From Mytilinidion resinicola (taxonomy: Eukaryota > Ascomycota > Dothideomycetes > Mytilinidiales > Mytilinidiaceae): a stretch of 64,000 nt of DNA. Under the pieces are notes generated by a model. It did not search any database. It was not told the origin of the DNA and saw only the letters and a program-made list of their open reading frames with translations. Numbering within the stretch: the stretch's first letter is position 1; every line of letters starts with the position of its first letter. The translations under genes were made by a program, and so were the position numbers. Location: positions 696,441 through 760,440 of the forward strand of contig NW_022985439.1 of NCBI RefSeq assembly GCF_010093595.1. The letters run 5' to 3'. Below are positions 60,061 to 64,000 of this stretch, one piece after another.

Positions 60061-61113
60061 TTAACTTGCATATATCCCACTCTTCCCGATATACCAAGGC
60101 TTCGCAATGTCAGCGATAGCCTTCTTCAGCAGACCGGGCTGAACTCCCAATTGCTCCATATCCCACCTCTCTTCCACCAAGATGTCCTCCACGATCCACT
60201 TCAAGAATAGCCCTAGCCCCTTGATATTCCTCTCCTTACCCGTTTCCCTCAGGTAGTCCCACGCCTGCTCCAGCCGCCCCTCGGAACACCACGCCTTGGC
60301 ACAGTCCACCGCTGTCTTTTGCTGCGCACTCTGCTCGTCCAATACCTTATCAGACGGCGGACCCTTCGTCGGCCTGGGCGCGTAATTCGGCTTAAAGGGC
60401 CCACCCTTCGTCTTAAACCACACCCTTTCCCTATGCGGAAAGCTATCAAACTTCCACACCACACCCTCCCCAGCCCCCTTCACCCCAAACGTTTTCGCGA
60501 ATGGGCACTCGGCGGCGATCTCCTCAGCGATGCCCTGCAGCCGCTGCTCCGTGGCCTCCGGGTCCGCAAGGTCGATCGCGGCGTGGTAAAAGCCCGCGCG
60601 CGAGATGTTGTAGATGCCGTCGGCTTCGCTTTCTAGGCCTGCGTAGAGCAGGTCTGGCTCCCATCCGCCGTTCAGGCTGGCGGAGACGATGACGAAGCGC
60701 TTGCTGAGGTGCACGAGCGCGACGCCCTTTTGGATGTTCTGGCCGATCCACTCGCCGGCGAGGATGAGAGGGGCGTGCTCGTCGATCACAACTTTGGGAA
60801 ATAAGCGCTTGGAGCGCTCGTAGTAGCGGTCGCGGAGGGAGAGAAGAGCGGCAGTTTTGGTGGCCATGGAAGCTGCGAATTCGTGGTTGTCGGCGGTGAT
60901 GCTGAGGTTGAGGCAGTTGCGGGACTGCAGCACGATGGTGTTGTCTGGGTAGATGAGGATGTCGGCGTGTGTGCCGTGCAGCTTGACAGTGCCAGTTACC
61001 ATGAGCTTGGTGGGCGGGGGACATTCCGAGGCGAATTCGTGGATGAGTTGAAGATCGTGGATGATCTCCTTGAGCTTCGTTCGGATCTTTGGGTAGAGGG
61101 TTGATTCCGACAT
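60061..61113 (-). CDS. RNA ligase-fold protein (nucleotidyltransferase superfamily)
   Basis: Single exon, 350 aa, ATG at 61113 (MSESTLYPKI). It shows the order of covalent nucleotidyltransferase motifs: motif I GTVKLHGTHADI with candidate lysine Lys44 (KLHG in place of the common KxDG), QSRN at 63-66, motif III LAGEWIG (118-124), motif IV EGVVWK (216-221) and motif V WFKTKGG (232-238). All nucleotide-binding motifs needed for adenylation appear present. The C-terminal about 100 residues are helical and unlike the OB fold of DNA ligases. Related fungal genes are annotated only as RNA ligase domain proteins; the substrate is unknown. It lies 607 bp downstream of, and on the same strand as, the rvt-type reverse transcriptase. 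Confidence 0.8.
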   Translation of the reverse strand: MSESTLYPKIRTKLKEIIHDLQLIHEFASECPPPTKLMVTGTVKLHGTHADILIYPDNTIVLQSRNCLNLSITADNHEFAASMATKTAALLSLRDRYYERSKRLFPKVVIDEHAPLILAGEWIGQNIQKGVALVHLSKRFVIVSASLNGGWEPDLLYAGLESEADGIYNISRAGFYHAAIDLADPEATEQRLQGIAEEIAAECPFAKTFGVKGAGEGVVWKFDSFPHRERVWFKTKGGPFKPNYAPRPTKGPPSDKVLDEQSAQQKTAVDCAKAWCSEGRLEQAWDYLRETGKERNIKGLGLFLKWIVEDILVEERWDMEQLGVQPGLLKKAIADIAKPWYIGKSGIYAS

Positions 61114-61720: not shown

Positions 61721-64000
61721 TCAACCCTGCCAGTTCACCCTCTTTCCACGGAACAAGCTGACCATCCCGATAGGCAAAAGGCCCGGGTCAACGACATTCA
61801 AGCCACCGAACCGCTCCATCATCTCTGGTCCATACATCTGCGTGACCCACTTCCAGTAGGGCTCCATGCTATGCCAGTTTCTTAGGTTTGCCGGTGTTCC
61901 TGTCTGTAGTGTCTGTGTACCCTCAAGCACCTGTGGCGTCGGATTAATGCTTTCCTCCTGGGGCCGCTGGAGTAATTTCTCAAAGACCTGGACAAGTCCG
62001 TTGGAGAAGTCGCTGGCATAATCCTCGCGATAGCGGATGAACTCTTCGAACGACATAAAGACGTCTTTTTCGTCGGCAGGTGGCTCCCACTCTGGGTCCC
62101 CGAGGTAGTAGGAGTTTCGGCGTGTGGCGCCGCCCTCGAAAGCGGCCTTTGCTTTGCGGTACTGATCCCGTTCTGCTTCGAAGAAGTCCTTGAGGAGGTC
62201 GGTCGGACGTTCCAGAACGGCGTCACGAATCTGGAGGAGATTGACGAATGGACTACGGAGGTCAAGACCGCCGAGTTCGACCGGGAAGAAGAGAAAGCCG
62301 TCCGGGATGTTGGCCACACCGAAGCGCTCCTGGATAGTCTTCTTGAGGTACTCCACAACGCTCTTGCTCTCGGTGTCGCCCATGGCGGCGAAGATAGCCG
62401 AGTGGATACGCTTGTGGGTGGAAAGCATGTTATCGACGTGGTCACGCCCATAGCAATTGGACGGCTTGCCGAAATTGGAGGCGAAGAATACCGTGGCATA
62501 AGTGTTCCAAGCCTGGATCCAAGAAAAGACGCTCTTTTGGCTTCGCAGCTGCGTTTGGAGCTCCTCAATATGCGACTCGATGATCTTCTGGTCAATCTCG
62601 AAACGTCCAGATTGCGGGTTGAGGTACAGGAAGCCCCATCGAATAATGCCTTTGGGGAGTCGTTCGTCAATCACAAGTTCCTGGGCGTCCCTTCCTACAC
62701 GCACTGTGCCAGACTTTGCCCTCTTCAATGAAGCCCCGATCACTTTGGTGAAGTCGCTGACTGTTTGCCATGCCTTGACGCACTTGTCATGATCAGGACT
62801 CCAAAACCAGAAATCGTCGTACATCCGATACAGCGGCGCACCTTCCACCTTCTGATTGATCGCGTAGTCGAGACAGAACAGAGTCGTCTCTCCGAAGAGA
62901 TCGCTCAATGCATGATTGCCGGGCGTGCCACGTTGGCGGATGCGAGGCGACGAAGATGGCTCGTCCATGAACTTCAGGGGAGCTTCAAGAAACTTCTTGA
63001 AGAATGCAACCCACTTCGCAGATATCCCGAAGAATCCCATCACTAGCAATATGGTGTTGTGGGAAAGTTTGGAATTCCAGTCTTCGAACGAAGATCGGAA
63101 GCAGGTAAGCTCACCGTGTATCTGGGTGTTGATGACGATTTCAGTTGATAGCAGATGCAAGAGAGTTTGTCTGTCCTCCATGGGATTCTTCGATTGAATG
63201 TCGCCGTCATCACTCTCAGCATCCGGATCCGGATGACTAGTCCGTCGTTCTCGAAAGCCCTGTGGCATCTGTCTCGCTGGGTAGACTGCACTAGCATTTT
63301 GATTACTGGCCATCTGGGAGAATTGACGCGCCGAATGACGCGCTGATTGACGCGCCATCGGCGCCTGCGGCGCCTGCATCGCCGCCAGGGCATGCATTTG
63401 GGTTGGAAATTGAGCTGCATGCGCGTCCCCGTCATCTTCGTCTTCGTCCGACTCCATGTTAAAGTTCGCAGCCTCTTCGTCTCCTTCGTCCGCCACGATA
63501 TTTTGATATACTGTGTCAGGCAGCTGTGCTAAGAAGTACTTCTGGCGATGGATACTCCGACGCTTTGTCTGTAAAGTTGGGGTTTGCTTCTGTGGGCCTA
63601 GGAAATATTCTCGGCGTTTGTGATCGAGTTTCGGGACAGTATTTCTCAGCGGATTCCACGCTCCCTTGACCTTTCGGAATCTCTTCAGCTCACGCTTGAA
63701 GAAAACGCACCATTGCATGCCAATGTACTGAAGAAATATTGCCTGCAGGAGATCTTCATGCAGGTGAATGGAGTATATGCCATTGAGCCTACGACGCTGC
63801 TCGACCGGAACATCGGGGCCCCAGGACCAGTCATCAAGGGCAGCCATCCGCATGTTCAAGACATCTGCAATTTCTCCGAGAATCGTTGGATTGCTCTTGA
63901 AGTCCTTCAAGACAGCTCGCTTCTCGTCATTGAGTAGGTCAGAGGATAGTAGGCCCTCAATGGTCCAGCCTAGGGAGCTGGTGTTGAACTGTGCTGGTCG
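61721..64000 (-). CDS. rvt: Cellular reverse transcriptase of the rvt class (3' part; 5' end outside window)
   Basis: Open on the minus strand from the window edge to the stop at 61721, at least 759 residues, with no start inside. Coordinates below count from 63910. RT motifs in order: a conserved N-terminal block (LHEDLLQAIFLQYIGMQWCVFF); an acidic, low-complexity stretch of about 135 residues (110-245); candidate motif A CFRSSFEDWN (271-280); motif B QRGTPGNHALSDLFG (326-340); catalytic YRMYDDFWFW with MYDD at 363-366; motif D SLKRAKSG; motif E RWGFLYL. There is no gag, RNase H or endonuclease domain and no flanking repeat, so it is not a retroelement. This fits the rvt genes described in fungi and other eukaryotes as single-copy domesticated RTs. 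The acidic stretch may correspond to the loop between RT motifs 2 and 3 in that class. Cellular function is not established. Confidence 0.85.
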   Translation of the reverse strand, partial: RPAQFNTSSLGWTIEGLLSSDLLNDEKRAVLKDFKSNPTILGEIADVLNMRMAALDDWSWGPDVPVEQRRRLNGIYSIHLHEDLLQAIFLQYIGMQWCVFFKRELKRFRKVKGAWNPLRNTVPKLDHKRREYFLGPQKQTPTLQTKRRSIHRQKYFLAQLPDTVYQNIVADEGDEEAANFNMESDEDEDDGDAHAAQFPTQMHALAAMQAPQAPMARQSARHSARQFSQMASNQNASAVYPARQMPQGFRERRTSHPDPDAESDDGDIQSKNPMEDRQTLLHLLSTEIVINTQIHGELTCFRSSFEDWNSKLSHNTILLVMGFFGISAKWVAFFKKFLEAPLKFMDEPSSSPRIRQRGTPGNHALSDLFGETTLFCLDYAINQKVEGAPLYRMYDDFWFWSPDHDKCVKAWQTVSDFTKVIGASLKRAKSGTVRVGRDAQELVIDERLPKGIIRWGFLYLNPQSGRFEIDQKIIESHIEELQTQLRSQKSVFSWIQAWNTYATVFFASNFGKPSNCYGRDHVDNMLSTHKRIHSAIFAAMGDTESKSVVEYLKKTIQERFGVANIPDGFLFFPVELGGLDLRSPFVNLLQIRDAVLERPTDLLKDFFEAERDQYRKAKAAFEGGATRRNSYYLGDPEWEPPADEKDVFMSFEEFIRYREDYASDFSNGLVQVFEKLLQRPQEESINPTPQVLEGTQTLQTGTPANLRNWHSMEPYWKWVTQMYGPEMMERFGGLNVVDPGLLPIGMVSLFRGKRVNWQG

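Follow-up and report, generated by a model that had tools for sequence, protein, structure and literature searches.

An old RVT-type gene of Mytilinidion resinicola whose lineage has lost the motif A catalytic aspartate

Few cellular genes are related to reverse transcriptases (RTs); besides telomerase and Prp8, RVT genes are among them. One study places loop 2a of these genes between motifs 2 and 3 (PMC5718144), and meeting reports credit the Neurospora crassa RVT with terminal transferase activity (PMC3520738) and state that the stress effect of rvt needs intact catalytic residues (PMC10680173). Here we describe an RVT-type gene at the right edge of a 64,000-base stretch of the fungus Mytilinidion resinicola (hereinafter the window; bases 696441-760440 of contig 3 in the 47.1 Mb genome). 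Its product is conserved and is predicted to adopt an RT fold, yet in its lineage the catalytic aspartate of motif A has been lost. The part of the gene that lies in the window shows the following features:

61721..64000, minus strand: RVT-type coding sequence for a protein of 995 amino acids, running past the right window edge; stop codon at 61721-61723
63191..63517, minus strand: low-complexity loop inserted before motif A (about residues 398-506)
63077..63100, minus strand: motif A, FRSSFEDW, with Ser540 (63089-63091) at the catalytic aspartate position, Glu542 at +2, Asp543 at +3 and Trp544 at the +4 aromatic position
62888..62932, minus strand: motif B, RGTPGNHALSDLFGE
62801..62830, minus strand: motif C, YRMYDDFWFW, with both aspartates retained
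62708..62737, minus strand: motif D, GASLKRAKSG, with its lysine retained
62621..62641, minus strand: motif E, RWGFLYL

An earlier note, made from the letters of the window, had recognized a long minus-strand frame carrying motifs B, C and E, which the sequence bears out. The genome sequence to the right of 64000 supplies the missing 5′ end: in window numbering the ATG would fall at 64708 (708 bases outside the window), which gives a total of 995 amino acids, within a single 1022-codon open frame without introns (full frame L002:1722-4709). Motifs A to E follow one another in order in the predicted RT fold, and motif A can be placed but has no aspartate. The large insertion of which the note spoke is present; its size is about 109-118 residues rather than the roughly 135 proposed, it is mostly predicted to be disordered, and its acidic character is found chiefly at both ends (its 87-residue core has 15 D+E as against 7 K+R).

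In right-hand polymerases the motif A aspartate binds both metals. The earlier note took the protein for an ordinary RT; it missed that in motif A (FRSSFEDWNSKLSH) a serine occupies the catalytic position. The placement is fixed by a histidine at +10, present in 102/102 rows of the clade to which the window protein belongs and in 135/137 rows of other clades. These counts come from an alignment of 293 rows (290 proteins and three of our own translations), from which 26 rows with <70% filled columns were excluded, among them our partial translation of the contig 4 paralog, represented instead by P0121; the 102-row clade counts the window protein twice. A search with the window protein yielded 661 homologs at E <= 0.01, and among the best 120 of these the catalytic position is occupied by aspartate in none and by glutamate in 15. 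Within the clade it is V in 65 rows, A in 10, I in six, T in six, S in four and other residues in 11, and never D or E; two sister grades have E throughout (13/13 and 15/15), and 129 of the 137 rows from other clades have D. With the aspartate missing from this protein and from all 102 rows of its clade, to label it plainly 'a reverse transcriptase' would be unwarranted.

When the columns of motifs A and C are left out, trees place these states in order. On a 39-row tree, its rows taken from those of an 87-row tree without the long ones, such as the contig 6 copy, the window clade is joined to the two glutamate grades with support of 100/100, the window clade itself receives 100/99 and the other rows together 100/100. 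The motif A position changes state twice on this tree and four times on the 87-row tree, where two rows of the contig 6 type have N; the rows of both trees were picked by hand and partly at random. The aspartate was lost in two steps on the tree, to glutamate and then to mostly uncharged residues. The named rows of the 15-row glutamate grade (Botrytis, Cadophora, Coleophoma and others) are Leotiomycetes, and the window clade comprises Dothideomycetes, Sordariomycetes (Fusarium, Verticillium) and Eurotiomycetes (Aspergillus oryzae, Phaeomoniella). We infer that the duplication is likely older than these classes. The RVT family itself was known already; the literature searched holds no account of a clade without the motif A aspartate, although the 2011 founding RVT paper and key subscription papers were beyond the reach of that search, and we claim no priority.

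That this is a domesticated, non-mobile cellular gene related to RTs and with RVT anatomy, as the earlier note proposed, is supported by the domain, copy and repeat checks. The Pfam scan of the protein recovered no RNase H, protease, integrase or endonuclease domain, and its sole match up to E 1 was a sub-threshold one to Mad3_BUB1_I (E 0.0073); RVT_1 did not match, and profiles from Pfam and NCBIfam gave the protein no name. Self-comparison of 9961 bases spanning the gene (E <= 1e-3) revealed a 28-base palindrome as the only repeat and no terminal repeats. The absence of protease, RNase H, integrase and terminal repeats claimed from the window is upheld. A 1001-base piece of the gene searched against its own genome matched itself alone. 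A retroelement RT that was domesticated not long ago or is in decay, of the long interspersed nuclear element (LINE), long terminal repeat (LTR) or group II intron type, would fit the predicted fold, which is nearest to the R2 and LINE-1 RTs, and a genome in which RVT_1-type RT sequences abound (150 scored among 223 candidates, many with internal stops). The window gene is absent from those 150 scored RVT_1 matches, and repeat-induced point mutation (RIP), by which the two RVT_1 loci checked look affected (L011 and L018; TA/AT about 1.7, GC 36 and 32%), has left no trace on the three RVT-type genes of the genome (TA/AT 0.54-0.57, GC 53-56%). Together with the missing domains and element ends, the single DNA copy and the placement of relatives from across Pezizomycotina on one tree, this makes such an origin very improbable; recent insertion is refuted, and all that is left of this reading would be an ancient ancestry shared by RVT and retroelement RTs. 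By class, LINE, LTR and other retroelement RTs were rejected for want of endonuclease, RNase H, integrase and terminal repeats and given the one DNA copy, a group II intron maturase at 11.7 bits for TIGR04416 against a cut-off of 300, and membership of Prp8 since Pfam, scanned to E 1, returned no Prp8 model.

At the protein level the picture of a rare single-copy rvt gene does not hold: besides the 661 homologs, the genome has three paralogous RVT-type loci of one copy each, so that the copy-number check upheld the single DNA match and added two diverged protein homologs, on contigs 4 and 6:

L038:3056-5803: contig 4 paralog, with an intact D + DD site and one predicted intron
L039:3392-6262: contig 6 paralog, with the motif A aspartate kept, DE in motif C and the motif D lysine lost

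Whole-protein identity among the three is 29-34%, and in the core the contig 4 and contig 6 copies are 38% and 32% identical to the window gene. The fungus thus carries three RVT-type paralogs of old standing, the window gene among them. The catalytic triad (the motif A aspartate and two motif C aspartates) is incomplete in the window protein and complete in the contig 4 paralog, the only one of the three found loci to have all three aspartates. P0121 (Mytilinidion resinicola) is 100% identical in its core to the contig 4 copy, and P0240 from the same species matches contig 6 at 99.9-100% over two pieces. The contig 6 copy has, in addition, a proline-rich insertion upstream of FLSQLP.

The homologs of the window protein are described from the best 120 of the 661, and those of the two paralogs from lists holding the best 120 of 143 and all 52. 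Among the matches listed, Lophium mytilinum supplies the closest other relative, at 92% within the RT core, and no protein in the three lists is labelled N. crassa. Thermothelomyces P0140 and Thermothielavioides P0194, both Sordariales, sit among the intact-triad rows on the tree. Scans of genome contigs (A2, A3) and viral contigs (A1, A3, A2) and a tblastn search of plasmids gave no bacterial or viral relatives; these are misses of sensitivity, since bacterial RVTs are known.

As judged from protein comparison, the window copy is better conserved between more distant genera than the intact-triad paralog. Its frame is uninterrupted and it shares 57.5-61.7% of its residues with the proteins of other genera, which would point towards purifying selection. 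Between Lepidopterella and Mytilinidion it reaches 61.7%, as against 46.7 and 50.4% for the other two paralogs, and between Lepidopterella and Lophium the corresponding values are 61.4% versus 45.5 and 50.3%; to Zopfia it is 57.5% identical, versus 41.0% for the contig 6 type. Within the clade, motif B has its glycine, proline and histidine in 102/102 rows each, and the second position of motif C is Asp in 73, Asn in 25, Glu in three and Ser in one. The rows with asparagine include Fusarium (e.g., P0036, P0052, P0094).

A catalytic residue lost from a gene that has been kept implies that the protein works without making nucleic acid or has an unusual active site. Since the motif A aspartate binds both metals, Val, Ala, Ser or Lys in its place should stop the standard reaction. 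Our first choice, to which we assign a probability of about one half, is accordingly a non-polymerizing pseudo-polymerase that grips RNA or a nucleotide in the RT cleft. The standard two-metal polymerization would have been given up, and the cleft, in which motif B, the first aspartate of motif C and the lysine of motif D are largely kept, would still bind RNA or nucleotide; the protein probably acts as a multimer, in a manner that may resemble the RT-like core of Prp8, a scaffold gripping RNA without catalysis, and it is likely to serve in the response to stress that has been reported for rvt genes. Several observations weigh against this choice. The first aspartate of motif C (100/102 rows, E in the other two) and the lysine of motif D (96/102, R in four) are held more tightly than expected had catalysis been abandoned, and every row of the clade has an acid just past the motif A position, at +2 in 95/102 and at +3 in the remaining seven. 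By contrast, the clade of the contig 6 copy decays at these motifs, with the first motif C aspartate in 37/41 rows, the second in 25/41 and the motif D lysine in 30/41. Among the structural neighbors listed by Foldseek and VIA, Prp8 was not singled out, viral RNA-dependent RNA polymerases (RdRPs) being tied at Z 14.2-14.7, and the Foldseek TM-scores were low over the whole query (0.14-0.30). The comparison of Mytilinidion with Lophium barely separates the three paralogs in identity (87.3, 86.5 and 84.9%). The 87-row tree recovered the same nesting with long-branch warnings, and a first FastTree tree gave the node uniting the window clade and the glutamate grades a support of 0.70.

The displaced acids also invite the reading that nucleotidyl transferase activity persists in the protein, in which an acid arose at +2 (or +3) while glutamate held position 0 and took over metal binding from the motif A aspartate, position 0 then being freed. 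The order on the tree fits, running from D with K, Q or R at +2 (110/137 rows) through E with an acid at +2 (24/28) to the final state, without an acid at position 0, and an acid at +2 or +3 occurs in 15/137 rows outside the clade and the glutamate grades. The retained residues of motifs B, C and D agree with such an enzyme, as does the variability of position 0, as for a released site. The loss, however, happened once only, so that the coupling is unreplicated (one independent pair, sign test p 1); in the predicted model the +2 residue lies just past the strand 556-564 that bears position 0 (563, P0001 numbering); and the second residue of motif C is N in 25/102 rows of the clade. In LINE-1 ORF2p a +2 acid stands next to a normal motif A aspartate, so that such an acid need not by itself be catalytic. 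We therefore hold a shifted carboxylate to be possible, if on the unlikely side. Its stronger form, that a Pezizomycotina lineage moved the motif A carboxylate by 2-3 residues via glutamate, rebuilt its metal site and still transfers nucleotides, we regard as less probable still; we know of no such shift in any RT or right-hand polymerase. Alternatively, the window protein could be a non-catalytic subunit in mixed multimers with the catalytic contig 4 paralog, in the way that p51 supports p66 in HIV-1 RT. The genome keeps the intact contig 4 copy beside two altered ones, and RVT proteins reportedly form multimers, according to the 2011 RVT paper, and the title of a 2018 paper on bacterial RVT contains 'multimerization'. 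Against this, Fusarium occurs only in the list for the window protein (best 120 of 661) and not in the other two, which suggests, if not firmly, that the protein can stand without the intact paralog; we consider such a partnership improbable. We thus return to the non-polymerizing pseudo-polymerase as the preferred account.

Some further observations concern the active-site motifs and the surroundings of the gene. Motif A +5, which in many RTs is the aromatic gate residue, is Gly or Ala in 131/137 rows outside the window clade and the glutamate grades; RVT is reported to prefer NTPs, which these residues would fit. In the clade of the contig 6 copy motif C has decayed separately, so that the catalytic site is being lost there by a different route. 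In the 638 bases upstream of the RVT-type gene, a search for TGASTCA sites found none, and a TATAAA-type box lies at -86 relative to the ATG. On the same strand, about 600 bases downstream, is the following gene:

60061..61113, minus strand: RNA ligase domain protein (PF09414), single-copy; 31.1 bits against a cut-off of 27

Living intermediates that have Asp, Glu or neither form a natural series in which to ask if RVT can function without polymerization, and if the two-metal site of a polymerase can be built anew. Aspergillus oryzae (P0105, in the window clade) and Aspergillus nidulans (P0196, an intact-triad relative) are ordinary laboratory fungi suited to asking it.

Among described systems, the protein compares best with RVT (rvt, including the Neurospora crassa RVT), with which it shares its nature as a cellular RT relative outside mobile elements and the large insertion that separates the early finger motifs from motif A (finger-motif numbering after PMC5718144). 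Intact-triad relatives share a tree with it, and the window clade differs in lacking the motif A aspartate. If the stress effect that requires catalytic residues is general, this clade must act otherwise or do something else. The R2 and LINE-1 RTs, in contrast, have an endonuclease domain and element ends that the window gene lacks, and the latter is present in one DNA copy. The antiviral RT DRT9 (9nlv, 9vma, 9ioa) has an intact catalytic site, is bacterial and is about half the length of the window protein; a noncoding RNA serves it as both scaffold and template. The RT-like core of Prp8 from the spliceosome, to which the mode of action proposed here may be compared, is about 10% identical to the window protein, with a Z score not above those of the viral RdRPs.
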